Part shown: piece after piece, positions 20,287 through 35,900 of the stretch
Layout of the letters: each line of letters begins with the position of its first letter
Numbering within the stretch: position 1 is the first letter of the stretch
Virus record (IMG/VR): IMGVR_UViG_3300042554_002704
Location: 1 to 45,995 of that record
Source of the DNA: a virus
Reading direction: 5' to 3' (one strand)
DNA: 45,995 bases
Program-made: the position numbers and the translations under genes
Notes under the pieces: generated by a model
What the model was told of the DNA's origin: nothing
Seen by the model: the letters and a program-made list of their open reading frames with translations, nothing else
Databases searched by the model: none

Positions 20287-20541
20287 TTAAACCTTTCTAT
20301 CTTCTTCTTTCCTAAGTCCGTAATTAATCCACCTATACCATATCCTTTCGTGTATATAGTATTGAATAGGCTTATAGACTAGTTCGGCGATACCAAATGC
20401 CGCACCTATTTTGACTGAACCTGATACTCCCCACATTATTATAAAGCCAATTAGAGTGCTGATAACTCGATAGCTTACGGTTTTTGCTATATGTCGTTTT
20501 CTTTCAACTATCATCTTACTATTACTACATCTCCCTTCCAA
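20287..20541 (-). CDS. DUF2061-like small membrane protein
   Basis: The 84-aa protein carries the pattern KRHIAKTVSYRVISTLIGFI followed by a second hydrophobic stretch with GAAFGIAELVYKPIQYYIHE and RIWYRW. This is the signature of the DUF2061 family of two-helix membrane proteins. In bacteria the family often neighbours sulfate-assimilation genes such as cysC and cysN; I recall this from genome context and have not checked it. Here it is the last gene of the set containing the APS-kinase-like and sulfotransferase genes, which gives that link weight. It overlaps the preceding 77-aa gene by 31 bases. Confidence 0.75.
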   Translation of the reverse strand: MEGRCSNSKMIVERKRHIAKTVSYRVISTLIGFIIMWGVSGSVKIGAAFGIAELVYKPIQYYIHERIWYRWINYGLRKEEDRKV

Positions 20542-20744
20542 ATTACCTCTACTGCAGTACAGCTTACGTGGTGTTTTTCAACTTCTTGATTCCTAATCGA
20601 ATCCCAGACTGTATCTCGGGTTGTATGTACAGGGAGTTGAAAGATAACATTTGAGCAAATACGTTCTTGTCCGTCGACTAGTATTCGCCAAAAGCTATGA
20701 TTATCCTTACACTGGGTATTCCACCTTACTTTTACGTCTATCAT
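20511..20744 (-). CDS. 77-aa hypothetical protein in the sulfation gene set
   Basis: Unrecognised small soluble protein (MIDVKVRWNTQCKDNHSFWR) with four cysteines or histidine clusters (HHVSC near the end of the middle part) and mostly beta character. The start codon overlaps the previous stop as ATGA, and it has the best Shine-Dalgarno of the window seven bases upstream. It overlaps the DUF2061-like gene by 31 bases. The placement implies co-expression with the nucleotidyltransferase; no function can be proposed from sequence. Confidence 0.65.
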   Translation of the reverse strand: MIDVKVRWNTQCKDNHSFWRILVDGQERICSNVIFQLPVHTTRDTVWDSIRNQEVEKHHVSCTAVEVIWKGDVVIVR

Positions 20745-21127
20745 AATTTTCCCTCCTGTTTCATTTGTTCACGGATTTTGGTTGCAGATATATCATGGAT
20801 CTCTTGAGGAGGTACATGTTCTATTACGTCGTAGCCTATTCCTCTTCCGATATTAACCGATTCGATATCGGGAATTTTCATGATATGTAATTTTCCTGTT
20901 TCTAGGAGATCTCTTAGTTCGCTCGATAGGTTCATAAGAATCTCTTGAGCCGTCCACGGGTTCTTCTCGCTAACAGGGACATCGCGAATACAGAGAAGTA
21001 CCTTTTTTCCTTCTTCGAGAGCTTGATCAATTAACCATCTATGCCCAGAATGCCAGGGCTGCCATCTCCCGATGAACATTGCCCACTCTCCGGACTTATG
21101 TTCTGCTTTAGCTAGGTAGTTCTTCAT
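20741..21127 (-). CDS. HxGH nucleotidyltransferase (cytidylyltransferase-like)
   Basis: The 128-aa protein has both landmarks of the nucleotidyltransferase alpha/beta phosphodiesterase superfamily. GRWQPWHSGHRWLI holds the His26-x-x-His29 catalytic motif, and HDISATKIRE (residues 111-120) is the C-terminal ISxTxIR nucleotide-binding motif. Members transfer AMP or CMP to a phosphate or similar acceptor. ATP sulfurylase has the same fold and a related motif. Because the next upstream gene is APS-kinase-like, a small sulfate-activating enzyme is one reading, but ATP sulfurylases are normally about three times longer. NMN or sugar-phosphate transfer is equally possible. It overlaps the kinase gene by 20 bases. 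Confidence 0.8.
   Translation of the reverse strand: MKNYLAKAEHKSGEWAMFIGRWQPWHSGHRWLIDQALEEGKKVLLCIRDVPVSEKNPWTAQEILMNLSSELRDLLETGKLHIMKIPDIESVNIGRGIGYDVIEHVPPQEIHDISATKIREQMKQEGKL
20751..20757 (-). promoter_or_regulatory. Strong Shine-Dalgarno for the 77-aa gene
   Basis: AGGAGGG seven bases from the ATG at 20744. It is exceptional in this window, where most starts lack one, and is buried in the last codons of the nucleotidyltransferase gene. Confidence 0.75.
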
Positions 21128-21563
21128 TAGTATAGCGTTTTATTGCATCTACGCATTCGGATATTGATAACTTAGACGTGTCTAAATGTAATATACGTTC
21201 TTTTTCTGGTATTTCAAAATCTTGCACGTGAAATTTTTCTCTCCCTCTTTCCCCTTCGTAGGTCAAGTATATCCACTTAACATCGTCGGTCAGATTCTTA
21301 AGGTAGTTACGTGCTTCTTTATAAGGATATACGAGAGATAGAATAATACCGTCACTACCTATACTATTCATGTAGTGAGCAATATCACTGGCTCTATTCA
21401 GATTTTGAATACGGCCTTTTCTACTGAAATTTTTGTTTTTAAAGATTTCACGCAGTTCATCTCCGTCAATATTCCAGTATTCACCGAAACACTGTTCGTT
21501 TACTAATTTTTTTGCCAGGGTAGACTTACCGCAGTGGGGCTGTCCGAATAATACTATAATCAT
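21108..21563 (-). CDS. Adenylylsulfate (APS) kinase-like protein
   Basis: The 151-aa protein matches APS kinase (CysC) segment by segment. The Walker A loop is GQPHCGKST (residues 7-15). IDGDELR (32-38) equals the LDGDNVR motif. FSRKGRIQNLNR (46-57) equals the FSxxDRxENIRR substrate-binding motif, although Asp is replaced by Gly50. GIILSLVYPYKEAR corresponds to the AxISPYRxxR strand. APS kinase phosphorylates APS to PAPS, the universal sulfate donor. It is shorter than the usual ~200 aa. Since its neighbour is a sulfotransferase that uses PAPS, the pair makes a coherent route. A related small-molecule kinase is the alternative. Its start overlaps the sulfotransferase stop by 4 bases. Confidence 0.82.
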   Translation of the reverse strand: MIIVLFGQPHCGKSTLAKKLVNEQCFGEYWNIDGDELREIFKNKNFSRKGRIQNLNRASDIAHYMNSIGSDGIILSLVYPYKEARNYLKNLTDDVKWIYLTYEGERGREKFHVQDFEIPEKERILHLDTSKLSISECVDAIKRYTNEELPS

Positions 21564-22381
21564 TTTTTATAACCGAATATGTCAAAGAACCATTTGTGAC
21601 TGTTGTAGATCCATTCGTAGGTGTAATCGCCTAATATGTCTCTTGAATCATCAGGTAGAGCACCTAATGTATTTCTAATTGTATGATCGCCATAAATACC
21701 GTGTACGGTATCATCTTCTACTGTGATTTGAGGTATATGGCTGAAGTTATGTTGGTAATAAGGTACTTCAAGATATTGATAGATACTCTGCATCATTGCC
21801 TCTGGTTTAGTGCAGAGATCCTCATATCTAATAATAAGAAAGTTTTGAGCTGTCTTATCAAGTATTGCTTGATATAGCTTTGGTACTGCATGCCCTATTG
21901 GATGTCCTACGGCCCATTTTTCTACTCGCTGCTGTGTAGTTAAACCCGTTAATTTAGCATTGTCTATTTCACCCTGATCTCTATCGGGATTGGCTCTAAA
22001 TTTTTTCTCCATAGAAGCAAATACCGCTCTCAAATCCCTTACCATGTATAGCATTTTAGGATTTGGATAAATGTTATTCACTAAGGAGTAAACAGAACCC
22101 CAATTTCTATTTTTGTCTAGAATGTAAGGCTTGTCAGTTAAATTTTCGATATAACCTCTTAGTCCCTCTCTACAGAAGGCATAAAACCCGTCACGCCACA
22201 TTTCTTTATCCCCAGCGTATGCTTCTTTGTTTCCGTTATAACCAATTCTAGCACCTAGTACTAGATCAATCATACCGGAGGTAGGCGTAACATGAAAATC
22301 AGGATTTTGTCCAATGAGGTTTTGTAGTAATGTTGAACCGGCTCTAGGAAGTGAGCTTTGATAAAATATTTTTTGTCTCAT
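21560..22381 (-). CDS. PAPS-dependent sulfotransferase
   Basis: The 273-aa protein shows both PAPS-binding elements. The 5'-phosphosulfate loop is SLPRAGSTLL (residues 10-19) at the N-terminus, and the 3'-phosphate motif is MVRDLRAVFAS, with Arg115 and Ser123 at the usual 8-residue spacing. A later YEDLCTKPEAMMQSIYQYLEV fits the sulfotransferase helix. Sulfotransferases move sulfate from PAPS to hydroxyls or amines of proteins, glycans or small molecules. The acceptor is unknown. The gene lies directly after three propeller adhesin genes and is coupled to an APS-kinase-like gene. Those adhesins, a surface glycan or a small metabolite are all candidates. No signal peptide is present, so it acts in the host cytoplasm. 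Confidence 0.88.
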   Translation of the reverse strand: MRQKIFYQSSLPRAGSTLLQNLIGQNPDFHVTPTSGMIDLVLGARIGYNGNKEAYAGDKEMWRDGFYAFCREGLRGYIENLTDKPYILDKNRNWGSVYSLVNNIYPNPKMLYMVRDLRAVFASMEKKFRANPDRDQGEIDNAKLTGLTTQQRVEKWAVGHPIGHAVPKLYQAILDKTAQNFLIIRYEDLCTKPEAMMQSIYQYLEVPYYQHNFSHIPQITVEDDTVHGIYGDHTIRNTLGALPDDSRDILGDYTYEWIYNSHKWFFDIFGYKK

Positions 22382-22427
22382 AACTTAATTTAAATATAAC
22401 TAAATTTTTTATGTTTTCAAAACTTTT

Positions 22428-23375
22428 TTATAAAGTACAGACTATATAACTATATTCTTCTGTGCATGCTACTTCTGTTGGTCCGGTAATGCCCCCAAAT
22501 GCAAGAGCTGCATTTTGTGTACCTGCCCCTGCTAATGCATATCTAGCAGTACTTAAAGCACAACCTGCTGTCCAAGTAGATCCATTATACTCTTCTGTAC
22601 AAGTATATCCTTGTCCACCAAAAGCAAGTCCGGCGTTTTGTGTTCCTGCTCCTGCTAAAGCAAATCTAGCAGTAATCAAAGCACCGCCTGCTGACCAAGC
22701 AGATCCATTGTATTCTTCTGTGCAAGAGACAATTGAAGCGTTATCTTCTCCTCCAAAAACAAGCCCAGCGTTTTGTGTACCTGCTCCTGCTAAATATTTT
22801 CTAGCGGTAATTAACGCGCTTCCTGCTGACCATGATGATCCATCATATTCTTCTGTACATGCTCCATATGGGCTGTCTCCTCCAACAGCTAAAGCGGCAT
22901 TTTGTGTTCCTGCTCCTGCTAAGTAATATCTACCAGTAATTAAAGCACCTCCTGCTGACCATGATGATCCATCATATTCTTCTGTACATCTAAGTACATA
23001 CGGTGAGTAAAAACCTCCAAAAGCAAGTCCGGCGTTTTGTGTTCCTGCTCCTGCTAATCCATGTCGAGCACTAGCTAAAGCACCACCCGCTGTCCAAGAA
23101 GTTCCATCATATTCTTCTGTACAAGATACACTGTTGACAGGGGGGAGTGCCCTCCCTCCAAAAGCAAGACCTGCGTTTTGTGTACCTGCTCCTGCTAATT
23201 CGAACCTAGCGTAAATCATAGCGCCACCCGTTGACCAAGCTTGCGGTCCGGTATATTTAACTCTCCCCTCATCTTCATCATACCACATACTGCCTTCAAT
23301 CTCTGGTGTTGGTGTTTTACCAAGCACCAAAACTGCAGTACCTGAAAGTGTTAAATTAGGGCCGTTAATTAACAT
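22428..23375 (-). CDS. Single-propeller Kelch-like adhesin A
   Basis: The 315-aa protein has a ~45-aa N-terminal module (GPNLTLSGTAVLVLGKTPTP then a GSMWYDEDEGRVKYTG strand) followed by six tandem blades. Each blade contains a W-S/T-x-GGAL-I-T-A-R strand, an AGAGTQNAGLAFGG strand and CTEEY followed by D or N, G and, after four more residues, W. A di-glycine followed by Tyr and Trp at fixed spacing is the Kelch signature, so six blades predict one six-bladed beta-propeller. The last blade ends CTEEYSYIVCTL. It has no shaft and no S74 chaperone, unlike the large paralogues. It is probably a receptor-binding or decoration protein of the tail fibres. Confidence 0.82.
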   Translation of the reverse strand: MLINGPNLTLSGTAVLVLGKTPTPEIEGSMWYDEDEGRVKYTGPQAWSTGGAMIYARFELAGAGTQNAGLAFGGRALPPVNSVSCTEEYDGTSWTAGGALASARHGLAGAGTQNAGLAFGGFYSPYVLRCTEEYDGSSWSAGGALITGRYYLAGAGTQNAALAVGGDSPYGACTEEYDGSSWSAGSALITARKYLAGAGTQNAGLVFGGEDNASIVSCTEEYNGSAWSAGGALITARFALAGAGTQNAGLAFGGQGYTCTEEYNGSTWTAGCALSTARYALAGAGTQNAALAFGGITGPTEVACTEEYSYIVCTL

Positions 23376-23400
23376 GTTGTATTGTTGATGTTTTTATTGT

Positions 23401-24351
23401 TTATTCTGGGATTGTACATATTGATATTCCGTTGTATTCTTCTGTGCATGATGCTCCAGATGGACTCCCTCCAAAAGCAAGTCCGCTAGCTTGTGTTCCT
23501 GCTCCTGCTAATTGTTGTCTACCAGTAATCAAAGCACCGCCTGTCGACCATACAGTTCCGTTATATTCTTCCGTGCAGGCATATCCCGGTGATCCGCCAA
23601 ATGCAAGACCTGCATTTTGGCTTCCTGCACCTGCTAATTTAGTAACACCGTTAATCAGTGCACCGCCTGTAGCCCATGCTGATCCGTCATATTCTTCTGT
23701 ACAAGTATATCCTTGTCCACCAAAAGAAAGAGCTGCATTTTGTGTTCCTGCTCCTGCTGACGACTCTCTACCGAATATTAAAGCACCGCCTGCTAACCAC
23801 GAAGTTCCGTTATATTCTTCTGTGCACGATACATATGAAGTACCTCCAGAGGCTAATGCTGCGTTTTGAGTTCCCGCTCCCGCTAATTGAGATGTACCAT
23901 TAATTAAAGCGCCGCCGGCTGACCAAGAAGATCCATTATATTCTTCTGTGCATGTTCCTACATTAATTGAAGGATTATTTCCCCCAAAAGCAAGGCCTGC
24001 GTTTTGGATTCCTGCTCCACCTACTCCAAATCTACACGTAATTAAATTACCGCCTGCTGCCCACGATGTTCCGTTATATTCTTCTGTATTTCTTAAAGGA
24101 TTAGGTCCACCATCCCCTCCTCCAAATACTAAACCTGCATTTTGTGTGCCTGCCCCTCCTGCTCCTTCTGTCCTACAGGTAATCAATGCACCGCCTGCCG
24201 ACCATGTACTATTCCCTGATCCAAATGTAAACTGTATTTTTCCTAATGTAGGATTAAACCACATATTACCAGCAGTAGTTGTATTCGATACTGTATTAAG
24301 TATCAGTACTGCCGATCCTGTAATGACTAAATTTGAATTATCTATGTTCAT
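23401..24351 (-). CDS. Single-propeller Kelch-like adhesin B
   Basis: This 316-aa protein is a paralogue of the neighbouring adhesins. The N-terminal module (NSNLVITGSAVLILNTVSNT, then AGNMWFNPTLGKIQF) is followed by six blades, the first with NTEEY in place of CTEEY. Loops between the GG and TEEY strands differ in length and sequence from gene A, which is where binding variation would be expected. It ends CTEEYNGISICTIPE. The gap to gene A is 25 bases. A promoter-like ATATTTATAA element lies 23 bases before the start. Confidence 0.82.
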   Translation of the reverse strand: MNIDNSNLVITGSAVLILNTVSNTTTAGNMWFNPTLGKIQFTFGSGNSTWSAGGALITCRTEGAGGAGTQNAGLVFGGGDGGPNPLRNTEEYNGTSWAAGGNLITCRFGVGGAGIQNAGLAFGGNNPSINVGTCTEEYNGSSWSAGGALINGTSQLAGAGTQNAALASGGTSYVSCTEEYNGTSWLAGGALIFGRESSAGAGTQNAALSFGGQGYTCTEEYDGSAWATGGALINGVTKLAGAGSQNAGLAFGGSPGYACTEEYNGTVWSTGGALITGRQQLAGAGTQASGLAFGGSPSGASCTEEYNGISICTIPE

Positions 24352-24373
24352 TGATATGTGGTGTTGTCCTTTC

Positions 24374-24385
24374 TATTATAAATAT
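24374..24385 (-). promoter_or_regulatory. Candidate late promoter, adhesin B gene
   Basis: Coding strand ATATTTATAATA, 23 bases before the ATG at 24351. Confidence 0.33.
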
Positions 24386-24386
24386 T

Positions 24387-25346
24387 TTAGAAGCAGCATA
24401 TGACTGGTACTGTATTGTATTCTTCTGTGCATGCTACATTTGGATCTCCTCCAAAAGCAAGAGCTTTAGCAAATGTACCTGCGCCTGCTAAACTACCTCT
24501 ACCGGTAATTAATGCGCCGCCTGCTAACCATGATATACCATTGTATTCCTCTGTACAAGCCTCATTTGGAGTTGTACCTCCAAAGGCTAAACCTGCATTT
24601 TGTGTCCCTGCACCAGCTAGTGTTCTCCTGCCAATAATCATAGCGCCGCCTGCCGACCAATTAGTTCCGTTATATTCTTCTGTACATGATAGTATAGGTC
24701 CGTTCTGTCCGCCAAATGCAAGACCAGCATTTTGTGTACCTACTCCTGCTAGAATACATCGGGCATTAATCATTGCTCCACCGGCCGACCAATTAGATCC
24801 GTCATACTCTTCCGTACAGGATACGTTACTACTAACCGGAGTTCCGGCATATCCTCCAAAAGCAAGCCCCGCATTTTGTGTTCCTGCTCCTGCTAAATTA
24901 AATCTAGCTGTAATTAAAGTAGTACCTGTCGACCAGGCTGTTCCGTTATATTCTTCAGTACAAGCTACTATAGTTGGTATACCACCTCCGAAAGCGAGAC
25001 CAGCATTTTGAGTACCTGCTCCAGCTAAAAGATATCTAGCGGTAATTAAAGCTCCGCCTGCTGCCCAAGATGATCCATTATACTCTTCTGTACAAGATAC
25101 TACTGTTGGAGTACTACCCCCGAATGCGAGGGCTGAGTTTTGAGTACCTGCTCCGGCGAGCCCGTTTCTAGCAGTGATTAAAGCACCGCCTGCCGCCCAT
25201 GCTCCATTACCAAGCCCGGTATACTGTACTTTCTGTAATAATTTATTATACCATATAGCGCCCTCTATAGCAGTATCGTCTGCTCTTCCAAGTGTTAAAA
25301 CCGCTTGGCCTGATATAACTAGGTTAGGAGGTCCGCAAACTTTCAT
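24387..25346 (-). CDS. Single-propeller Kelch-like adhesin C
   Basis: The 319-aa protein has the same plan as adhesins A and B: a VCGPPNLVISGQAVLTLGR head with an AIWYNKLLQKVQYTG strand, then six CTEEY blades. The third blade carries the insertion YAGTPVSSNVS. The same insertion and its DNA recur in the large adhesin at 36197-39421, showing exchange of blades between loci. Blade six ends CTEEYNTVPVICCF. It is the first of the three single-propeller genes in transcription and follows the glycosyltransferase gene. Confidence 0.82.
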   Translation of the reverse strand: MKVCGPPNLVISGQAVLTLGRADDTAIEGAIWYNKLLQKVQYTGLGNGAWAAGGALITARNGLAGAGTQNSALAFGGSTPTVVSCTEEYNGSSWAAGGALITARYLLAGAGTQNAGLAFGGGIPTIVACTEEYNGTAWSTGTTLITARFNLAGAGTQNAGLAFGGYAGTPVSSNVSCTEEYDGSNWSAGGAMINARCILAGVGTQNAGLAFGGQNGPILSCTEEYNGTNWSAGGAMIIGRRTLAGAGTQNAGLAFGGTTPNEACTEEYNGISWLAGGALITGRGSLAGAGTFAKALAFGGDPNVACTEEYNTVPVICCF

Positions 25347-25362
25347 ACTACGTCACATTTGA

Positions 25363-25374
25363 TAATAAATATAT
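25363..25374 (-). promoter_or_regulatory. Candidate late promoter, adhesin C gene
   Basis: Coding strand ATATATTTATTA, 17 bases before the ATG at 25346. Confidence 0.33.
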
Positions 25375-25379
25375 TAGAA

Positions 25380-26303
25380 TCAAATGTTATTGAGTATTTC
25401 GTCAATATTAAACATGTCTGTTAACTCCATGTAAGGACATTCGTGTAGATTATTTTCAAATTGAAAATCAAAGAGATACGATCCTATGAGCTGATTTGCT
25501 TTCTTGGGTAGGTTTGCAACTACATTTTTATGTAATCTATATCCGAATACTGTCGGCGAAGTTCCTACCCATAGTACTGTCGATGGAAGTTTGAATGCGG
25601 CAGCAGCATGCTGTAGACAAGAATCGATTAGAACGCGTTTCTGTGCATCAACTAGTATTGCAAATAACTCAATATTGGATAGCTGTTGGTCTATTCTCTC
25701 TACCCCGTCTAGGTGATATCCGTCGGGTCTAGTTACTTGAAATATGTGGTATTGATTTCTGAATTTATTTACAATTGCCTGGGCTATATCTTGAGGCATA
25801 TCGCGGGTCCAGGAGTAATTATACTTTTGACCTTGGCCCGGTCCTCCCCCTGTTTGAATAACTATTGTTGGTTTTTGTCTTTTCCAAAGACCGACTAATT
25901 GTCTTTGTACGTAGTTTGCAAATACTTGGGGCTGTTGTTCAGTATATTTTATACCCAGTAGATCGCACCAGTTTTCAATCAAATGCTTTGTTTTAGTAAT
26001 ATGTCCTGTTTGATTGTAGGGTTCGTGTCTACAGACAATGATATCTTTCTCGTAGATATAGTCTTCATAGAAGTAGGGTGCTTGTGTTAAATTGTATACC
26101 CTATCGATATAAGGGTTATTTAGAAATGCTTCTGGATAGGATACTACCATTATCAGCTTTCTGTCAGGAAAAGCTTCTTTTATATCTTTACATAGAGAGG
26201 TTGCTGCAATATTTTTACCTAATCCTCCCTGTATATGCCAGATAAAAAATTTATCTCCAATATTCCTGTTTGAGTGGTATATGTATCCTTGTTCTTGTTT
26301 CAT
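25380..26303 (-). CDS. GT-B glycosyltransferase, heptosyltransferase (GT9)-like
   Basis: The 307-aa protein resembles GT9-type transferases. The N-terminal FFIWHIQGGLGKNIAATSLC matches the 'GGLGD...' nucleotide-sugar-side loop, followed by FPDRKLIMVVSYPEAFLNNP. A central PTIVIQTGGGPG strand starts the second Rossmann half. The C-terminal DSCLQHAAAAFKLPSTVLWVGTSP matches the 'D....H.A.A.g.P.v.lfg.T.P' donor-binding region. Such enzymes add heptose or similar sugars to lipopolysaccharide cores. In a phage it could alter host surface glycans or glycosylate virion proteins. It starts one base into the stop of the neighbouring oxygenase gene (TAATG), suggesting coupling. Confidence 0.75.
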   Translation of the reverse strand: MKQEQGYIYHSNRNIGDKFFIWHIQGGLGKNIAATSLCKDIKEAFPDRKLIMVVSYPEAFLNNPYIDRVYNLTQAPYFYEDYIYEKDIIVCRHEPYNQTGHITKTKHLIENWCDLLGIKYTEQQPQVFANYVQRQLVGLWKRQKPTIVIQTGGGPGQGQKYNYSWTRDMPQDIAQAIVNKFRNQYHIFQVTRPDGYHLDGVERIDQQLSNIELFAILVDAQKRVLIDSCLQHAAAAFKLPSTVLWVGTSPTVFGYRLHKNVVANLPKKANQLIGSYLFDFQFENNLHECPYMELTDMFNIDEILNNI

Positions 26304-26941
26304 TAAAATATTAATTCAGTTAAGTTCTCTTCCTCTCCAAATCCTACTTTAGGTACTACGTTGAATGCTAAACTGCATCTAGGTTTATCAGTCTTATTGA
26401 CCGGTACCGAATGCATGAGATGAGAAGGGAATAGTATTAACAGGCCTGGTTCAAATGTTATAGCGAATTCCTGCTGTGCATACCTTAAGTCTTTTTTATC
26501 TTTTACTAGCTTTGGGGAAATATAAGATGCATTAACACCGCCTGCTGTTCTATGAAACTTGATAGCCGATGTTTTTTCAGCTGCATGTCCGTAATAGAGT
26601 ACTCCTGAGAGTAGACTATTTGGGTGAGTATGTGCAGTATGGTGCTGTCCTGGGGCTTTTATAGAGACCCAAGATTGTCCGAATCTATATTCATTATAGG
26701 CGTATCCTAGCTTCTCGGCATACACCTTCACGTTACCTAAGATAAATTCAGCTAATGTCGCACATTCAGGTTTATCTAACAAATAGCTATCCTTAGATCT
26801 GAACCCGTAGTTATCATGATCGGAATCGGTACCCATGTCTTGACCATCGAAGAACTTAATTACCTTTGCATACTGCACGGGCAGCGTGGTAGCGTAAACC
26901 GGGGTTGGGAACAACTCCAGTATTTCATAATTAATTTGCAT
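26303..26941 (-). CDS. 2OG-Fe(II) oxygenase 1 (phage 2OG-FeII_Oxy_5-like)
   Basis: The FPTPVY N-terminus and the core HTHPNSLLSGVLYY are hallmarks of the small phage 2OG/Fe(II) dioxygenases common in marine myoviruses. Numbering from the ATG at 26941 (212 aa), the metal site is His104/His106 with distal His177 in FPSHLMHSVPV, and Arg188 in RCSLAFN would hold 2-oxoglutarate. An HxH replaces the classical HxD. These enzymes hydroxylate amino-acid side chains or other substrates. I prefer the ATG at 26941 (MQINYEILELFP) over an upstream in-frame TTG at 26950. It overlaps oxygenase 2 by 11 bases and is its closest paralogue. Confidence 0.85.
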   Translation of the reverse strand: MQINYEILELFPTPVYATTLPVQYAKVIKFFDGQDMGTDSDHDNYGFRSKDSYLLDKPECATLAEFILGNVKVYAEKLGYAYNEYRFGQSWVSIKAPGQHHTAHTHPNSLLSGVLYYGHAAEKTSAIKFHRTAGGVNASYISPKLVKDKKDLRYAQQEFAITFEPGLLILFPSHLMHSVPVNKTDKPRCSLAFNVVPKVGFGEEENLTELIF

Positions 26942-27590
26942 AACGTCCAAATATTATTTCAGAAATGGTTTCTTTATCGCCCAGTGTTCCTTTCGTTAAT
27001 ACGTTTACACCTAATGCTTTCCTGACTTTATTTGTTCTATTGGGAGGTACACCATGTGTAACGTATGAAGGAAATATAATGAAATTATTTTGTTGCGGTG
27101 TAAAATAAATTTCCTCCTGAGAGAATTTATGCTGCTGATAATCGTCCTGTAGAGAGGGTTCTAAATAAGTTCTATACTGAGATCCAGCTACTTTACTAAA
27201 GCAAATAGCTGCATCCCCGGGTTCAAAATCGTAATAAAATACGCCGGCAAGTAGAGTGTTTGGGTGAGTATGTGCTTTGTGAAATTGACCGGGCATTTTA
27301 TAGGTAAGCCACGATTGAGAAAACTGCAATTCCTTATAGCGATACCTCATTACGTTAGTGGCAAAGTCATTAAAGCATTGCATGAAAAAATTAGCCAGCG
27401 GTTTACAGATTGGATGATCAATTATATAGCTATTTTTTGATATCCAACCATAAGGGCTATTTTTTCCATCGTTCATTTCGCAACTATCGAAGTACTTAAC
27501 TATTTCAGTTGTATCTCCCGGGTATGTTGCTACATACAGCGGAGTTGGAAACATTTCAAAAACTTTAGCACTACTCCCTGCTATATTCAT
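26931..27590 (-). CDS. 2OG-Fe(II) oxygenase 2, paralogue of oxygenase 1
   Basis: The 219-aa protein shares with oxygenase 1 the FPTPLYVATYPG start and the core HKAHTHPNTLLAGVFYY. The predicted ligands are His107, His109 and His179 (FPSYVTHGVPPN), with Arg190 for 2-oxoglutarate. It also shares the KYFDSCEMNDGKNSPYGWIS region and the ending TISEIIF, showing that the two arose by tandem duplication. Large sequence differences outside the active site suggest different substrates. It starts in a GTTATG context. Confidence 0.85.
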   Translation of the reverse strand: MNIAGSSAKVFEMFPTPLYVATYPGDTTEIVKYFDSCEMNDGKNSPYGWISKNSYIIDHPICKPLANFFMQCFNDFATNVMRYRYKELQFSQSWLTYKMPGQFHKAHTHPNTLLAGVFYYDFEPGDAAICFSKVAGSQYRTYLEPSLQDDYQQHKFSQEEIYFTPQQNNFIIFPSYVTHGVPPNRTNKVRKALGVNVLTKGTLGDKETISEIIFGRYAN

Positions 27591-27594
27591 AACC

Positions 27595-28200
27595 TTAATT
27601 ACTTTTTTGTGAAGGACTGATAAAATTAAATGCTATAGAGATTCTCTCTTCGTTTGATTCGTTTCTTTCTACGTGATGTTTGATCCAACTTGGAAACAGG
27701 TAGAAAGTAGATTCTTTAGCTGGCTTTGTCACAGAAAATGCGTTAGCCATTGTATGCTCTCTCTGTACCTTACTATTCATGAAGAATTCTATGTCGTCTC
27801 CCCTATGTAGCACTAAATCTCCCATGTTATTTCTTGGAACCGATACATAGTATACCCCAGACAAGATACTGTTCTGATGATCGTGTAATAGGTTATAATC
27901 ATGATGTCCGTTGATGTTAATCCAGAAATTACCTATCTCTAGGTTATTGATTCCAGTATAACGAGCACATACATCGTTGACGAATACGTTCAAGTCATTG
28001 AAGAGGTTTTCTAACGCTACCGGAATTGGGAAGAGGAGTTCGCCTGAATGCCATCCTCCTCGATTTGAAATCGTAACCCCGGGCTTCTGTCTACGGGTTT
28101 CCAGGCAATACTGCTTGATAGATTGATTATCGATTCCTGATACAGGACACTCCCAAACCGGAGTTGCGAACCATAACTGTTCGTAAACTTTAAATTCCAT
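27595..28200 (-). CDS. 2OG-Fe(II) oxygenase 3
   Basis: The 201-aa protein belongs to the same broad family but a different branch. It has FATPVWECPV at the start, then HHDYNLLHDHQNSILSGVYY with His106 and His108, a distal His near 175 (FPSWIKHHVERN), and Arg186 in RISIAFN. A GDLVLHRGDDIEFF insertion sits between the metal motifs. The protein is close in pattern to oxygenases annotated in cyanophage and pelagiphage tail regions. The gap to oxygenase 2 is 4 bases. Confidence 0.84.
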   Translation of the reverse strand: MEFKVYEQLWFATPVWECPVSGIDNQSIKQYCLETRRQKPGVTISNRGGWHSGELLFPIPVALENLFNDLNVFVNDVCARYTGINNLEIGNFWININGHHDYNLLHDHQNSILSGVYYVSVPRNNMGDLVLHRGDDIEFFMNSKVQREHTMANAFSVTKPAKESTFYLFPSWIKHHVERNESNEERISIAFNFISPSQKSN

Positions 28201-28214
28201 AACTAAGTTTTTAA

Positions 28215-28826
28215 TTATCTAAATGGGCGACCGCCGGTCCAAAATACTAGACACTTACGCTGGCCTCGTGTGATTGGTTTTACTCTATGCATGCAGAATG
28301 CTGGAAAGCAAATAACGTCTCCTTTCTCCCTGGGCACAACTACTGATTTTTGACCACCAAACCAGATCTCAAAATCGCCTCCTTCATAATCCCTAGGATC
28401 TGATAATTGAACAGTAGTAGCGATCTTTCTTTTATTAACATCGAGAGCACCTACGTCCATATGCCAGTCCAGGTGCCCTCCATCAGTTGGGTAGACTACA
28501 TAGTGGATGGGATCGGTAACAACATCGATATCAAAATGAAATGCTTTTTCGTTAGCTTCTAATACTAGCGGAAATAAAATATCATAAAGCCATTTTGTAT
28601 GCGGGGCTGGTTCAAGGTAGGCAATATCTCGGTTATTTGTTTGGTAGGAATCAGTATCGGTACCTAATTCTCTTACACCAGTCCTACCCTTGGAAAATTT
28701 ATAGTTTGCTTTAACCATCTGCTCCAGTTCTCCGATCATACGATCATTAAATACGTTTTTAAAATAGTAAAACGTATTCCAGTTAGATTGTGGCTTAAAA
28801 TTATTGTACGGCTTTAATGGAAACAT
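28215..28826 (-). CDS. 2OG-Fe(II) oxygenase 4 (prolyl-4-hydroxylase / PKHD-type)
   Basis: The 203-aa protein has a canonical double-stranded beta-helix site. HLDWHMDVG supplies His122 and Asp124 (HxD), MHRVKPITRGQRKCLVFW supplies the distal His180, and Arg190 would anchor 2-oxoglutarate. ATTVQLSDPRDYEGGDFEIW lies between them, as in PKHD-type hydroxylases and phage relatives that modify proline or other residues. The motif is more classical than in oxygenases 1-3, so it is a separate subfamily and not a copy of them. Confidence 0.88.
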   Translation of the reverse strand: MFPLKPYNNFKPQSNWNTFYYFKNVFNDRMIGELEQMVKANYKFSKGRTGVRELGTDTDSYQTNNRDIAYLEPAPHTKWLYDILFPLVLEANEKAFHFDIDVVTDPIHYVVYPTDGGHLDWHMDVGALDVNKRKIATTVQLSDPRDYEGGDFEIWFGGQKSVVVPREKGDVICFPAFCMHRVKPITRGQRKCLVFWTGGRPFR

Positions 28827-28832
28827 AACAAT

Positions 28833-29420
28833 TTATTTTTCAGTTCTATCAAGCATGGTAAACCAGCCTGTTAAAATATACTTTGTTTGAGTGGGAGAAG
28901 GAACACCTCTATGTAAATGCATCCAGTCCGACGGCCATATTATTAACTTTCCTTCGACTGCTGATTCGAAATGGTGCTGATAAAAAAATTCAGTTTCACC
29001 TCTATCTGTTACTGTATTTAAGTAAACAGCCCAGACTAGAAACCTGTTACTGTATTTGTTTGTTGCTCTTTCGCAATGCCACCCGTGAAATCCTTCTCCT
29101 GGTTCGTAGCGCTGCATATTGAATAGAGGGCTAATCTGCAAAGGATCAAGCTTAGAGAATGCTAGAGAATGTCTGTCAATATAATCTCGTTGACCTTTTT
29201 CTAAAATACCTACTAATTCTGTTAGCAAAGGACTCCAAGTCGGATGTTGCAAGTACCTAGGATCAAAAGTTATGTCTGTTGACTTTTTTCCGTTAGATGA
29301 CGAAGTACCGTCGGGGCCGTAGAGTACGCCCGGTTTTTTATCTTCGGATACTTCAAACGCATCTATAAAAGCTTTACATAACTGAGAGGATAATGCCTTC
29401 TCTTTTCTGTATATGAACAT
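28833..29420 (-). CDS. 2OG-Fe(II) oxygenase 5
   Basis: The 195-aa protein has EPGEGFHGWHCERAT with His115 and Glu117 (HxE variant of the metal site). It then has VWAVYLNTVTDRGETEFFYQ, a strand pair typical of this fold, and a distal HLHRGVPSPTQTKYILTGWF with His170 and Lys180, where Lys instead of Arg probably binds 2-oxoglutarate. It is first of the five in transcription. The leader is GTTATG. Substrate unknown. Confidence 0.84.
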   Translation of the reverse strand: MFIYRKEKALSSQLCKAFIDAFEVSEDKKPGVLYGPDGTSSSNGKKSTDITFDPRYLQHPTWSPLLTELVGILEKGQRDYIDRHSLAFSKLDPLQISPLFNMQRYEPGEGFHGWHCERATNKYSNRFLVWAVYLNTVTDRGETEFFYQHHFESAVEGKLIIWPSDWMHLHRGVPSPTQTKYILTGWFTMLDRTEK

Positions 29421-29428
29421 AACTAAGT

Positions 29429-30142
29429 TTACTGTTGTTGCTGGCTTTCAACATGCTGGGCAAGCTGCTGTTGACGAGCCTGTTCAAATGTCAAAAGTGT
29501 ATTACCTTCGGCCTTGAGTCTTTGCAGGGTTTGATAAGGACCTACAGCGTTAATAACTTCACTCGGTTCACTATTTGGACTGAGAGCCTTTACTCTATTT
29601 TCAAGCCTTAGTCCTAAGCTTTCGGCCTGATGTGTATTTACCTCTCTATCGTCGAAGGTTCCATCGTTGAGTTCGGCTTTAATCTTAGACCAAGTCTGGA
29701 TCTCACGAACACGGTCGTGGGCTACCTGTTCCATGCAGGCTTTATTGTAGAGATTTTGATCTAAATCGATCTGTGCCTCTATAATATCGAGCATATCACC
29801 TTTAAGTTCTGCTTCTTTCATTTTACGTTCGAGTCTGAGCCTTTCTACATCGGCTCTTCTCATTTCAAATGAAAGATTCATCATCGCATCAAAGTGCGCA
29901 GACATTTCCCTAACCGACTGCCAGTATTTAGATGCCGGAGTGGGATGCTTGGCATCATTCAAGACCGATACACGCATTTCCGTTTCAGTACGGAAAATTT
30001 GTTTTTTATTCCAGTTATCGGCCAGTTCTTCTTTTAATCTTACAACTTCCCTAGCGTCTTCCGGTTTCAAAACCGCTAGAATATTCTGTAAATCACTAGG
30101 AATTGCTAGTTCGCGACCTGATTCTTGTTTATTTTCGTCCAT
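29429..30142 (-). CDS. Helical, charged hypothetical protein
   Basis: The 237-aa protein is dominated by long charged helices (AHFDAMMNLSFEMRRADVER, then LRLERKMKEAELKGDMLDII) and ends in a Gln-rich tail (QARQQQLAQHVESQQQQ). Coiled-coil assembly is likely; no catalytic motif or membrane segment is seen. Similar helical proteins occur near tail fibres in marine T4-like phages, but I cannot name a family with confidence. Candidates are a fibre-assembly chaperone or a connector. It precedes the oxygenase group with a gap of 8 bases. Confidence 0.62.
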   Translation of the reverse strand: MDENKQESGRELAIPSDLQNILAVLKPEDAREVVRLKEELADNWNKKQIFRTETEMRVSVLNDAKHPTPASKYWQSVREMSAHFDAMMNLSFEMRRADVERLRLERKMKEAELKGDMLDIIEAQIDLDQNLYNKACMEQVAHDRVREIQTWSKIKAELNDGTFDDREVNTHQAESLGLRLENRVKALSPNSEPSEVINAVGPYQTLQRLKAEGNTLLTFEQARQQQLAQHVESQQQQ

Positions 30143-30199
30143 AACGAAGTTTGTATTTACTATTAATGTAACAAATATTATTCAATCTTCCAACTCTTT

Positions 30200-30475
30200 T
30201 TAGGGAAGAATGATATTTTGAGGTTCAGGGCCACAGAGCCATGGTGTTGAACCGGAAACGCAAGTTTGCCATTCTGTCTGAGTCTGATCAACTACGGCAT
30301 CAACGAGAGCTTGTGCTTCTGCTTTAGTCTTTTCTACAGCTCCTACCCGGGTTGCCCAGATTTGATTGTTTTCCGTTACCCATACGTTTGCGGGATATCC
30401 GGCAATGTGGGATCTTTGGTTATCTTCGTGGGTGATGAATCCTACCCCCGTGTTAACTGCTACGTAATACTGCAT
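30200..30475 (-). CDS. 91-aa hypothetical protein with QIW motif
   Basis: MQYYVAVNTGVGFI at the start, then WVTENNQIWATRVG and a helix KTKAEAQALVDAVVDQ. The C-terminus carries two Cys in CVSGSTPWLCGPEPQ. The 57-aa protein at 39472 shares the order QIW-x-x-R followed by an Ala/Glu helix. Both lie at the edges of the propeller adhesin block, so they may be related small fibre accessory proteins. Not a recognised family. Confidence 0.6.
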   Translation of the reverse strand: MQYYVAVNTGVGFITHEDNQRSHIAGYPANVWVTENNQIWATRVGAVEKTKAEAQALVDAVVDQTQTEWQTCVSGSTPWLCGPEPQNIILP

Positions 30476-30498: not shown

Positions 30499-30508
30499 AA
30501 TAAATATT
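30499..30508 (-). promoter_or_regulatory. Candidate late promoter, 91-aa gene
   Basis: Coding strand AATATTTATT, 24 bases before the ATG at 30475, just touching the end of the double-propeller gene. It could drive the oxygenase genes. Confidence 0.33.
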
Positions 30509-32915
30509 ACTTGTTCTTAAATTTATTGATTTTTGCCGTAAGATCGGCAATTTGCTGCTGCTGTTCTTGGATGGCTTTAATAAGCGGAGCTATAATTTTT
30601 GAATAGCTCATACCCTCTACCTCGCCTGCTTCATCCTTACTTACTATTTCAGGATAAACATTGGCTACCTCTTCGGCAATCAATCCTATGTCATGTTTGC
30701 GGTTGGTTTTCCAATCAAATTCAACAGGTTTGAGTTGGTTAATTTTATCAAGCTGTGATGTTAATTCTTTGATATCATCTTTGTAGCGCTGGGCTGATGT
30801 TTCAATAAGGCATGATACTGTTGTGATGCCGTTTTCGGCACAGTAATCGAAAGATAGTAGAGGGCCTATTCCACCTGTGTATTCTTCCGTGCAGGCTAAA
30901 TATGCCCCGTAAAACCCTCCAAAAGCAAGTCCAGCATTTTGTGTTCCTGCTCCAGCTAATGCATATCTGGAATTATTTAGAGTACCGCCTGTTGACCACG
31001 TTGATCCGTTATATTCTTCCGTACAGGCACCGTATCCGCTACTGCCTCCAAAGGCTAAAGCAGCATTTTGTGTGCCTGCTCCTGCTAAACATTTTCTACC
31101 AATAATCATAGCACCGCCTGCTGTCCATGAAGTTCCGTTATATTCTTCTGTACAAGCTCCTGCAGATCCTCCAAATGCTAAAGCTGCGTTTTGTATACCT
31201 GCTCCCGCTAAGCTATCTCTACCAGCGATTAAAGCACCACCAGCAGACCAAGAGGTTCCGTTATATTCTTCTGTGCATGCGCCTGGTCCATAGTTTCCGC
31301 CAAATGCTAATCCGGCATTTTGTGTACCTGCTCCTGCTAAATACTCTCCACCTGAAATTAAAGCACCGCCTGCTGTCCAAGTGGCGCCATCATATTCCTC
31401 TGTACAGGTATTTGGGGACGGCCTTCCTCCAAAAGCTAAAGCTGCATTTTGTGTTCCTGCTCCTGCTAAACGGAATTGAGCGTTTATCATTGCTCCACCG
31501 TTTGACCATGAAGATCCATCATACTCCTCTGTACAATTATAAGTAGGATAACCGCCAAAAGCAAGACCTGCATTTTGAGTACCTGCTCCTGCTAAAAAAT
31601 GTCTAGCAGTGATCATAGCACCGCCTGCCGACCACGATCCTCCTGGCCCTACACCAGATGTATAATAACAAAATTGAACATTACTTATTGTTTTTATAGA
31701 ACCTGATATCTCTAGTGTATCATCTACAAATGTAGTTCTGATAGATGTATTGCCTGTTGTGTTGGAGAAGTTGAAGGTTTGGGGGTTGGGGTTTGAGCCA
31801 GCATATTCTTCTGTGCATGATTGCCCCGGATTTCCTCCAAAAGCAAGTCCTGCATTTTGTGTACCTGCTCCTGCTAAAAATGCTCTACCAGTAATTAAAG
31901 CACCGCCTGTAGACCATGAAGATCCATCATATTCCTCTGTACAGGTAACTGAAGGAGTGCCTCCAAATCCTAAAGCAGCATTTTGTGTACCTGCTCCGGC
32001 TAGAGCATACCTAGAGCTAATCAATGCTCCTCCTACCGACCAAGAAGTACCGTTATATTCTTCAGTACATGCTACTGTTGTTGGGTTGGTAGTTATTCCA
32101 CCAAATGCTAAGCCTGAATTTTGTGTTCCTGCTCCTGCTAAACCTTGTCTAGCAGTAATTAAAGCACCGCCTGCCGACCAAGTCGATCCATCGTACTCTT
32201 CAGTACATGCTCTTGATGTTGGGGTGGTAGTTATTCCACCAAATGCTAAGCCTGAATTTTGTGTTCCTGCTCCTGCTAAATACAATCTAGCTGTAATTAA
32301 AGCTCCACCAGTTGACCAGGACGATCCATTATATTCTTCTGTACATGATATAGGATTATATCCATCGCTACCTCCAAATGCTAAGCCGGCATTTTGTGTT
32401 CCTACTCCTGCTAAGAGATATCTAGCAACACTCAAAGCTCCGCCTGTAAACCAGCTTGACCCGTTATATTCTTCAGTACATGTACAAACATATGTTACAA
32501 TACCTCCAAATGCTAAGCCTGAATTTTGTGTACCTGCTCCTGCTAAACTTTCTCTAGCAGTAATTAAAGCACCACCAGCACTCCACCCGGCTACTATATT
32601 ATATCCAAATCCTACACTTCCTGTTACACCTAATGATCCGCTAACTTGAGCCGATCCTGTAAAAGGGAATACGGGCGGTAGGTTTATATAAGATGCTGTA
32701 AGGGCATATGAAGATGTTCCAAATAGAGATCCTGTTGCTGATATATTACCTGTTGAATTTGAATAGAGGAAAGTTTGTGTAGTACCTCCACCTGTATGAT
32801 AATTAAATCCTACACTTCCAGTAACACCTAGTGATCCGGTCGCTCTGAAGGATCCTGAAACCCTAGAGTTGTCTGGAGAAATTAAACCGTTCCTGGCTAC
32901 AAATTCGTTTGACAT
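30507..32915 (-). CDS. Double-propeller adhesin with S74 intramolecular chaperone
   Basis: The 802-aa protein has an N-terminal anchor (MSNEFVARNGLISPDNSRVS, then ATGSLGVTGSVGF), a short TGS-rich shaft and propeller 1 (six blades, about residues 110-375). A linker with ALEISG-like shaft text follows, then propeller 2 (six blades, about 420-690). The C-terminal ~98 residues are an S74 domain. SAQRYK provides Ser707 and Lys712 at the same 5-residue spacing as the endosialidase self-cleaving dyad, then KPVEFDWKT and HDIGLIAEEV. The domain trimerises and is cut off after folding. This is probably a trimeric tail fibre or tailspike for receptor binding. Confidence 0.85.
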   Translation of the reverse strand: MSNEFVARNGLISPDNSRVSGSFRATGSLGVTGSVGFNYHTGGGTTQTFLYSNSTGNISATGSLFGTSSYALTASYINLPPVFPFTGSAQVSGSLGVTGSVGFGYNIVAGWSAGGALITARESLAGAGTQNSGLAFGGIVTYVCTCTEEYNGSSWFTGGALSVARYLLAGVGTQNAGLAFGGSDGYNPISCTEEYNGSSWSTGGALITARLYLAGAGTQNSGLAFGGITTTPTSRACTEEYDGSTWSAGGALITARQGLAGAGTQNSGLAFGGITTNPTTVACTEEYNGTSWSVGGALISSRYALAGAGTQNAALGFGGTPSVTCTEEYDGSSWSTGGALITGRAFLAGAGTQNAGLAFGGNPGQSCTEEYAGSNPNPQTFNFSNTTGNTSIRTTFVDDTLEISGSIKTISNVQFCYYTSGVGPGGSWSAGGAMITARHFLAGAGTQNAGLAFGGYPTYNCTEEYDGSSWSNGGAMINAQFRLAGAGTQNAALAFGGRPSPNTCTEEYDGATWTAGGALISGGEYLAGAGTQNAGLAFGGNYGPGACTEEYNGTSWSAGGALIAGRDSLAGAGIQNAALAFGGSAGACTEEYNGTSWTAGGAMIIGRKCLAGAGTQNAALAFGGSSGYGACTEEYNGSTWSTGGTLNNSRYALAGAGTQNAGLAFGGFYGAYLACTEEYTGGIGPLLSFDYCAENGITTVSCLIETSAQRYKDDIKELTSQLDKINQLKPVEFDWKTNRKHDIGLIAEEVANVYPEIVSKDEAGEVEGMSYSKIIAPLIKAIQEQQQQIADLTAKINKFKNK
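32290..32404 (-). repeat. Blade-coding segment nearly identical to 35638-35752
   Basis: About 115 bases are identical except for one internal base, although they lie in two different adhesin genes. This indicates recent blade copying or gene conversion. Confidence 0.85.
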
Positions 32916-32918
32916 AGT

Positions 32919-35900
32919 CTATTCTTGGGGCGGTGTTTTATATAAATATTTTTGATCTTCTAAATCGCTAGCTTCCTTAGTTAACACAGCAATTTGTTGT
33001 TGCTGCTCTTGAATAGCTTTAATTAGGGCGGCTACCATTTTAGAGTAACTAATACCTGTTATTTTACCCTCTTCGTCTCTACTTACTACCTCGGGATAAA
33101 TTTCGGCTACCTCTTCGGCAATCAGACCAATATCTGGTTTGCGGCTTGTTTTCCAAACAAACTCTACTGGTTTAAGTTGATTAATCTTATCAAGCTGGTT
33201 TGTTAATTCTTTAACGTTGTCTTTATAACGATGGGCTGAAGTTTCTACTAGACATGATACTGTTGTTATACCGGTATTAGATGAGTAGTCGAATGATTTT
33301 ACTATAGCGGCCGTACCGTTGTATTCTTCTGTGCATGCTACAACTGTTGGGGATGTACCGCCAAATGCTAAAGCAGAGTGTTGTACACCAGCACTTGCTA
33401 AGCTGTCTCTACCAGTGATTAAAGCACCTCCTGCCAACCATGAAGATCCATCATACTCTTCTGTACAAGCACGAACTGTAGGTGATGCATATCCTCCAAG
33501 AGCAAGAGCTGTATTTTGAGTACCTGTCCCTGCTAATCGAGTTCTACCAGTAATTATAGCACCGCCTGTTGACCAGCTAGCTCCATCATATTCTTCTGTG
33601 CAAGCTCCATTTGGATTGTTTCCACCAAAAGCTATAGCTGCATTTTGAATACCTGCTCCAGCTAGACTAAATCTAGAAGTAATCATATTACCTCCCGCTG
33701 ACCAAGCAGATCCATCATATTCTTCTGTACATGTTGGGTTTCCAAATGCTAAACCAGCATTTTGAGTACCAGCGCCTGCTAAATCACCTCTAGCAGTAAT
33801 TAATGCTCCACCAGCTGACCAAGATGATCCATTATACTCTTCTGTGCAAGCTACAACAGCATTAATACATCCTCCAAATGCTAAACCAGCATTTTGAGTA
33901 CCAGCGCCTGCTAAAATACTTCTTCCGCTAATCATCGCTCCGCCTGCTGCCCATGAAGATCCATCATATTCTTCAGAACATGCTACTTTAGTTGGTGTTG
34001 CTCCACCAAAAGCAAGACCTGCATTCTGTGTACCTGCCCCTGCTAAAGAAGTTCTAGCAGTAATCAAAGCACCGCCTGCTGACCATACACCTGCCCCTCC
34101 ATCTGATGAATTAAAACAAAATTCGATATCGCTTATTGCTTTTACAGAGCCTGTTACTGCTAACGTCTCTGTCACTCTAGCCGATCTAATAGCTGTATTA
34201 CCTGTTGAAGTTGAATAGTTAAATGCTTGGATAAGACCAGGGGCACCGCTATATTCTTCTGTACAGGCATAACCTGTAGCACCAGCTGGGCTTGCACCAC
34301 CAAAAGCTAAAGCTTCATTCTGTGTTCCTGCTCCTTCAAGGGCATATCTAGCCTGTATTAAAGCACCGCCTGTAGCCCAAGTTGATCCATTATATGCTTC
34401 TGTACAGCTAACTAACGTTGGTGTTGATCCTCCAAAAACGAGGCCTGAGTTTTGAAAGCCGGCTCCTGCTGATTGATCTCTAGCTGTAATTAATGCACCA
34501 CCTGCTGCCCATACTGTTCCGTTGTATTCTTCTGTACATGCAGTAGCGGATGGAGTTGTATTACCTCCAGATGCTAAACTAGCATTTTGTATTCCAGATG
34601 CCGCTGAACCGAATCTAGCAGTTATCAAACCACTAGCTACTGCCCATGCTGTACCATCATATTCTTCTGTACATGAACAAGCTGTATATGTTGGAGCAGC
34701 TCCTGAACCCCCAACAGCTAAAGCTGCATTTTGAGTTCCAACTCCCGGTGAATACCATCTAGTAGCTATCATAGCACCGCCTGTTGCCCATGTTGCTCCA
34801 TCGTATTCTTCAGTACAAGTGACAATAGCTGTATTAGTAGGTGGGTTTGTTGCTCCTGAAAATCCTAAAGCTGCATTTTGCGTACCTGTACCTCCTAAAC
34901 CAAACCTACCTGTTATCATTGCATTGCTTGCCGCCCATGATGTTCCATTGTATTCCTCAGTACAGTTACGCATTGAAGGAGGTGCGTATCCGTTAAAAAC
35001 GAGAGCACTGTTTTGAACTCCAGCTCCGCCCGATAGATACCTGCCTGTAATCATAGCCCCGCCTGCAGTCCATCCGGCAGTTGAATTGTATGAAAATCCA
35101 ACACTACCTGTCACACCTAGGGATCCTGTGATTCTAGCTGAACCGGTAAATGGAAATGCTACAGGTGCATTTAAAGCATTTGATGCTGTAAGGGCAAATG
35201 ATGCTGTACCAAATAGAGAGCCTGTTGCCGATATACAGCCCGTTGTATTTGAGTAAAGGAAGGTTTGTAGTGGACTGTATTCTTCTGTACATGATAAAGT
35301 ATAATACTGATCTCTTCCTCCAAAAGCAAGACCTGCATTTTGAGTACCGGCTCCTGCTAGTGTTCGTCTACCATTAATTAAAGCACCGCCTGTTGACCAT
35401 GAGGTACCATTATATTCTTCTGTGCATGCTTCATTTGGGTTGCCACCTCCAAATGCAAGACCAGAGTTTTGTGTACCAGCTCCCGCTAAGCTATACCTAG
35501 CTGTTAATAGAGCACCTCCTGCTGACCATGAAGATCCGTTATATTCTTCTGTGCAGGCTACTATAGCTGGGGCTGGAGTAAGTCCTCCAAACGCTAGTCC
35601 AGCATTTTGAGTGCCTGCTCCTGCTAAAGTTGCTCTGGCTGTAATTAAAGCTCCACCAGTTGACCAGGACGATCCATTATATTCTTCTGTACATGATATA
35701 GGATTATATACATCGCTACCTCCAAATGCTAAGCCGGCATTTTGTGTTCCTGCTCCAGCTAAAGTGTTTCTAGTAGTGATTAAGGGATTTCCGGCTGACC
35801 AAGATATACCATTGTATTCTTCTGTACAAGCTACTATTGCTATAATTCGTCCACCAAAAGCTAGAGCTTCATTTTGTGTTCCTACTCCTGCTAACTGTCT

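Follow-up and report, generated by a model that had tools for sequence, protein, structure and literature searches.

The nearest known system to the locus described here is a glycan cluster of the eukaryotic giant virus Moumouvirus australiensis, for which sulfate activation and a sulfotransferase were predicted, the cluster as a whole being proposed to decorate the virion fibrils (PMC10117803). Among phages, sulfotransferases have been described in cyanophages and OM43 phages (S-SRM01, S-SCSM1 and S-SKS1), where their function was called unclear (PMC10580990). The 2OG-Fe(II) oxygenases of T4-like cyanophages such as Nanhaivirus ms29 were filed as auxiliary metabolic genes (PMC10436341), and auxiliary metabolism is the category under which phage 2OG oxygenases are usually listed (PMC10436341, PMC9301287). 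In cells, PAPS is synthesized by CysDN or Sat together with CysC, or by human PAPSS.

The window analysed in this study, the 45,995-base virus record IMGVR_UViG_3300042554_002704, stems from a virus of aquatic bacteria and is judged to be a fragment of a T4-like myovirus because its tail sheath resembles those of Flavobacterium phage immuto (53% identity) and Microcystis phage Mel-JY01 (48% identity). Like the Moumouvirus cluster, the window is predicted to encode both sulfate activation and a sulfotransferase (ST), but in Moumouvirus the former was attributed to a predicted bifunctional sulfate adenylyltransferase/APS kinase, and kelch adhesins and DUF2061 are not among the features given in the accessible part of that report (PMC10117803). 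The ST of the window is of the Sulfotransfer_3 type and is 24-30% identical to the cyanophage and OM43 phage enzymes, although no adjacent kinase-nucleotidylyltransferase pair was reported for these (PMC10580990). Its oxygenases belong to the same two families, likewise in multiple copies, as those of Nanhaivirus ms29, for which a link to kelch adhesins is not stated in the accessible text (PMC10436341). As in cellular PAPS synthesis, the window pairs a nucleotidyltransferase (NTase) with an APS kinase-like protein that together would feed a sulfotransferase, and the two enzymes are fused in some species, as they are in parts of the window's NTase family; unlike Sat and CysD, however, the window-type NTase is NMNAT-like, small (112-170 aa when stand-alone) and, by family searches, outside both of these ATP sulfurylase families.

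Gene content and order

All of the genes under study lie on the minus strand and are transcribed in the order long fibre, mp3, mp2, mp1, o91, o237, oxy5 to oxy1, GT9-like, prop3 to prop1, ST, kinase, NTase, o77, DUF2061, o84 and tail sheath, with overlaps between ST and kinase (4 bases), kinase and NTase (20), NTase and o77 (4) and oxy1 and oxy2 (20), as in an operon. Family searches and catalytic motifs confirmed each part that the first-pass annotation had named (Table 1), including the five oxygenases, all of which score above family cut-offs with intact metal-ligand motifs (PF13759 at 1.7e-23 to 4e-17 for oxy1-3, PF13640 at 1.3e-12 and 3.9e-8 for oxy4-5). The position of the enzymes between two groups of adhesins, also claimed by that annotation, applies to the oxygenases and the GT9-like gene only, as ST, kinase, NTase, o77 and DUF2061 lie farther along, past the single propellers and before the tail sheath. 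The block is composed of two linked modules, an adhesin-oxygenase locus and a sulfation module, and the co-location of its genes exceeds chance, given that many other contigs share this gene order. T4 late-promoter motifs (TATAAATA) numbered 8 against 5.9 expected; they are not enriched and lend no support to the adhesins as substrate. Elsewhere in the window, an ORF at 3040-3636 that by eye resembles an HNH-type homing endonuclease adjoins a polymerase-A-like gene at 3654-4949.

Table 1. Positions in the window of the genes under study, and the basis of each assignment
Feature	Position	Strand	Basis
DUF2061 small membrane protein, putative sulfation-module partner	20287..20541	-	PF09834 2.5e-15
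o77, 77 aa	20511..20744	-	4-base overlaps with both NTase and DUF2061
NTase, HxGH nucleotidylyltransferase, 128 aa, predicted minimal ATP sulfurylase	20741..21127	-	PF01467 6e-7
APS kinase-like enzyme, predicted PAPS maker	21108..21563	-	PF01583 2.5e-10
ST, sulfotransferase (Sulfotransfer_3)	21560..22381	-	PF13469 4.6e-17; PRAGST and RDLR motifs
prop1, single six-bladed kelch-like protein, putative adhesin	22428..23375	-	blade count, kelch profile match
prop2, single six-bladed kelch-like adhesin	23401..24351	-	blade count, kelch profile match
prop3, single six-bladed kelch-like adhesin	24387..25346	-	blade count, kelch profile match
GT9-like glycosyltransferase	25380..26303	-	weak NCBIfam heptosyltransferase match; profile link to PF01075 protein
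oxy1, 2OG-Fe(II) oxygenase	26303..26950	-	PF13759/TIGR02466
oxy2, 2OG-Fe(II) oxygenase	26931..27590	-	PF13759
oxy3, 2OG-Fe(II) oxygenase	27595..28200	-	PF13759/TIGR02466
oxy4, 2OG-Fe(II) oxygenase, PKHD-like	28215..28826	-	PF13640
oxy5, 2OG-Fe(II) oxygenase	28833..29420	-	PF13640
o237, conserved protein marking the adhesin-oxygenase locus	29429..30142	-	locus comparison
o91, small protein beside propeller genes	30200..30475	-	locus comparison
mp1, kelch adhesin of 12 blades ending in a Peptidase_S74 chaperone domain	30507..32915	-	domain search, blade count
mp2, kelch adhesin of 18 blades, also ending in S74	32919..36188	-	domain search, blade count
mp3, adhesin with several propellers and no fewer than 16 blades	36197..39421	-	blade count

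The ST matches its family profile at 63.4 bits (cut-off 27) and retains both the 5'- and the 3'-phosphate-binding motifs of Sulfotransfer_3 enzymes. The kinase reaches 41 bits against PF01583 (cut-off 21.1), carries the Walker A motif GQPHCGKS and DGDELR (DGDxxR), and the best PDB matches of its family profile are APS kinases (3.7e-16). It is nevertheless short, with an alignment that extends only to about residue 97; the C-terminal FTGI lid present in cellular CysC is missing from the phage kinase family alignment, and at 38.4 bits against 138.7 on the apsK equivalog (TIGR00455) the protein does not qualify as a full-length APS kinase. DUF2061 scores 57.1 bits against PF09834 (cut-off 23.1), and the TTG annotated as its start, at 20541, is probably a miscall, the true start lying near 20514, because homologues begin at an ATG ten codons in; no paper on its function was found in a literature search of papers outside subscription. 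Homologues of o77 directly follow the NTase in other phages, and the protein is strongly conserved in larger ones, such as that of L203:2345-2578, where the next gene encodes a DNA methyltransferase. The GT9-like protein itself gave no match to PF01075 (Pfam GT9) and its profile nothing useful in the PDB, the assignment being based on a match of the family profile (1.5e-8) to a protein of locus L179 that is itself PF01075 at 2.6e-23.

The single propellers consist of six kelch repeats each, of about 44 residues per blade, and the multi-propeller proteins of 12 or more. When five single propellers were combined into a profile, it matched solved kelch proteins in the PDB (2.4e-12), which places the propellers among kelch-repeat proteins; the AF2 model of a single propeller, computed from a 5-sequence alignment, had a pLDDT of 37, too low to support a closed propeller fold. 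Adhesin function is presumed for prop1. The S74 chaperone domain occurs on phage fibres, and the C-terminus of mp3 resembles, as judged by eye, the S74 domain of mp1 and mp2. A tblastn search with a window propeller gave no match in isolate phages, though the low-complexity filter may have hidden one. Between 22428 and 39421 the kelch blades are near-identical outside the segment that separates FGG from CTEEY, a pattern suggestive of one loop undergoing recombination or diversification. The conserved TEEY motif was considered as a site of tyrosine sulfation and dropped, as it matches the general kelch pattern ‘E-x-YD...W’ and also occurs in propellers whose loci showed no sulfotransferase.

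The adhesin-oxygenase locus and the presumed target of its enzymes

Loci selected by propeller sequence repeatedly contained propellers, o91, o237 and oxygenases, and often ST. Conversely, kelch propellers were present in 57 of the 62 loci that were picked by o237 alone, without selection for propellers, and had at least 1.5 kb upstream. Neither the isolate-phage collection (tblastn with two o237 proteins) nor the PDB yielded a match to o237; o91 is a possible assembly factor. The locus recurs in unrelated uncultured phages of two types, one T4-like and the other, with a different virion protein (phrog_3287), taken to be podovirus-like, and in the second type ST, ST and kinase, or ST, kinase and NTase may occupy the space that separates o237 from the first oxygenase. 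Across 43 distinct o237-oxygenase loci of both types the sulfation enzymes are nested: 24 loci have none, 12 have ST, 2 have ST and kinase and 5 have all three, with neither a kinase without ST nor an NTase without kinase in any of the 43. As a long, fully supported branch (100/100) separates the NTases of the second type from the T4-like ones, PAPS genes probably joined adhesin loci separately and more than once. Five o237-oxygenase loci (L427, L434, L438, L439 and L451) have several ORFs of 61-82 aa directly upstream and no propeller gene, and these ORFs are perhaps broken or very divergent adhesins.

The functional tie between enzymes and adhesins that the first-pass annotation had drawn is likely for the oxygenases and the ST, because their co-location with kelch propellers recurs in two very different phage groups, and it was not borne out for kinase, NTase and DUF2061. 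In a set of 80 sheath-picked loci, analysed with profiles and gene calls made for this study, ST, GT9, kinase, NTase and DUF2061 repeatedly form a group on the upstream side of the sheath, at sheath identities as low as 56%. Of the 34 sheath loci whose upstream sequence spanned at least 4 kb, 18 had a kinase or NTase, but 15 of these 18 were without a single-propeller ORF in upstream stretches of at most 10 kb, some of them shorter, and in these sheath-anchored loci the link between cassette and single propeller was not significant (3/18 vs 0/16). The same annotation had reasoned that enzymes occurring regularly in phages lacking the adhesins would speak against the tie, which is what was observed for kinase, NTase and DUF2061 in many phages; the frequency of the sulfation module where no propeller is seen nearby counts against the adhesins as its target.

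We regard it as slightly better than an even chance that the window represents a tail-adhesin locus with its own PAPS supply and with enzymes that hydroxylate, glycosylate and sulfate the adhesins or their glycans. The NTase would convert ATP and sulfate to adenosine phosphosulfate (APS), the APS kinase would convert APS to PAPS, with DUF2061 as a membrane partner of sulfate activation, and ST would use PAPS as the donor to sulfate a hydroxyl group. The five 2OG oxygenases would introduce hydroxyl groups into a substrate, to which the GT9-like enzyme would add a sugar, the new hydroxyls or sugars being plausible sulfate acceptors, such that sulfation would occur on or beside enzymatically hydroxylated sites. 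The likeliest target would be the neighbouring kelch-propeller adhesins or glycans on them, because the enzyme genes interleave with kelch adhesins across unrelated phages, and the outcome would be virions with a chemically altered, negatively charged binding surface. Within this scheme, comparison supports the family assignments, the recurrence of the gene order and the NTase's substitution for CysD in cellular genomes, whereas the target, the order of hydroxylation followed by sugar or sulfate, and the benefit are presumed.

A less likely, though serious, alternative is that the enzymes sulfate and glycosylate the LPS or capsule of the host, thereby blocking superinfection or the sticking of progeny to debris, and lie near fibre genes as both deal with the same host surface. 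GT9 is a heptosyltransferase (LPS) family, the kinase-NTase pair of other phages clusters with glycosyltransferases and sugar dehydrogenases, and Marinimicrobia hold the pair in polysaccharide-like gene clusters, all of which would suit modification of the envelope; this explanation does not, however, require the specific interleaving of the oxygenase-o237-ST set with propeller genes that was observed in two phage groups.

The NTase as a predicted minimal ATP sulfurylase

The NTase belongs to the HxGH superfamily, scoring 30.1 bits against PF01467 (cut-off 21) with the motifs HSGH and ISATKIR. Its sequence profile is nearest to NMN adenylyltransferase (NadM), with which it shares the HxGH and ISxTxxR motifs, and its AF2 model (pLDDT 80.7) adopts an NMNAT fold (Foldseek E 5.6e-4 to NMNAT), ATP sulfurylases being among the weaker structural matches. 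It is nevertheless far below the NMNAT equivalog TIGR01527 (36.9 bits vs 181) and differs from NadM in its own invariant R47 and GR[GD]VGY loop, and it is also below the cut-off of the Sat family PF01747 (13.4 bits vs 24.3). Among 49 distinct viral NTases, again by our profiles and gene calls, a kinase was found within two genes in 46, and DUF2061, ST and GT9 within six genes in 38, 23 and 20, respectively; in other phages the kinase-NTase pair adjoins a DNA methyltransferase or sits in glycan clusters. Cultured Stenotrophomonas phages carry a kinase-NTase fusion, annotated as ‘kinase’ or hypothetical (L270:4587-5327 and L271:4620-5351), with no sulfotransferase annotated nearby, which offers an isolate-based handle on the enzyme.

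In 48 cellular loci the NTase is mostly adjacent or fused to APS kinase. One operon (L132) comprises a sulfotransferase, a DUF2061/APS kinase (CysC) fusion and the NTase, another locus (L120) pairs CysC with the NTase and has a CysQ-like gene four positions farther along, and in a member of the Nitrospiraceae the NTase follows sulfite reductase and CysH in an operon (L113:4665-8438), although that genome has Sat elsewhere. APS kinase was found in 62 of 148 Flavobacteriales genomes, and CysD was present in 56/56 of those with APS kinase and no NTase as compared to 0/6 of those with both (Fisher p=1.6e-8; p=2e-6 after removal of two genomes that entered via the NTase search); Sat was not found in the six either, which may represent only a few independent losses. 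Of the 33 Flavobacteriales genomes with DUF2061, 21 had it no more than 3 kb from apsK or cysD. Sat occurred in 6 and CysD in 2 of 37 NTase genomes, never in the same one, leaving 29 without both, and the Sat carriers include Nitrospiraceae. As MAG and single-cell genomes are incomplete, single absences are weak evidence, and the contrast within one order is strong.

From the replacement of CysD, the adjacency and fusion to APS kinase, and the sulfate-gene contexts, we predict the NTase to be a minimal ATP sulfurylase and the cassette a PAPS-supplied sulfation unit. Since phage NTases occupy a different part of the tree from the cellular ones, we infer rather than observe that they share this activity. 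The genetic evidence comes from Flavobacteriales and Nitrospiraceae homologues, with which the window NTase shares only about 34-40% identity, and this weighs against the assignment, as does a fold nearer to NMNAT than to ATP sulfurylase. The assignment of kinase, NTase and DUF2061 to a PAPS-supply unit, overlooked by the first-pass annotation, is well supported by these comparisons. No paper on an NMNAT-like ATP sulfurylase was found in the search of papers outside subscription.

It is improbable that kinase and NTase instead make another activated nucleotide, such as a 3'-phosphorylated CDP- or ADP-linked small group, or serve NAD metabolism. A Campylobacter APS-kinase homologue is reported to act in this way for phosphoramidate, and the NMNAT-like fold and profile of the NTase, the score of the kinase below the APS-kinase equivalog, and the fused homologues of Casjensviridae, which adjoin genes for a NADAR-domain protein and a DNA methyltransferase but showed no sulfotransferase nearby, would all be in keeping with such a role. 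The replacement of CysD beside full-length APS kinases, the fusion to APS kinase with a neighbouring sulfotransferase, and the adjacency to CysH and sulfite reductase point instead to sulfate. That the block is a gathering of unrelated auxiliary genes in a hypervariable slot near fibre genes, with no joint function, is very improbable, for although tail-fibre regions collect cargo genes and many contigs hold only part of the set, the fixed order on a common strand, the overlaps between genes, the nested occurrence of the pathway and the reappearance of the set in unrelated phages argue against it.

Implications

A broader proposal is put forward tentatively, its chances falling somewhat short of even: the minimal NMNAT-like enzyme would be a third kind of ATP sulfurylase, active in the PAPS synthesis of many bacteria and phages, and unrelated phages would employ it, along with dedicated oxygenases and a sulfotransferase, to sulfate their own host-binding proteins. 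If true, it would name the missing sulfate-activation step in many genomes lacking both known ATP sulfurylases, and would provide a role for the sulfotransferases and 2OG oxygenases of phages, which the cited papers call unclear or assign to auxiliary metabolism. Chemical tailoring of phage adhesins would then represent a mechanism of host range.
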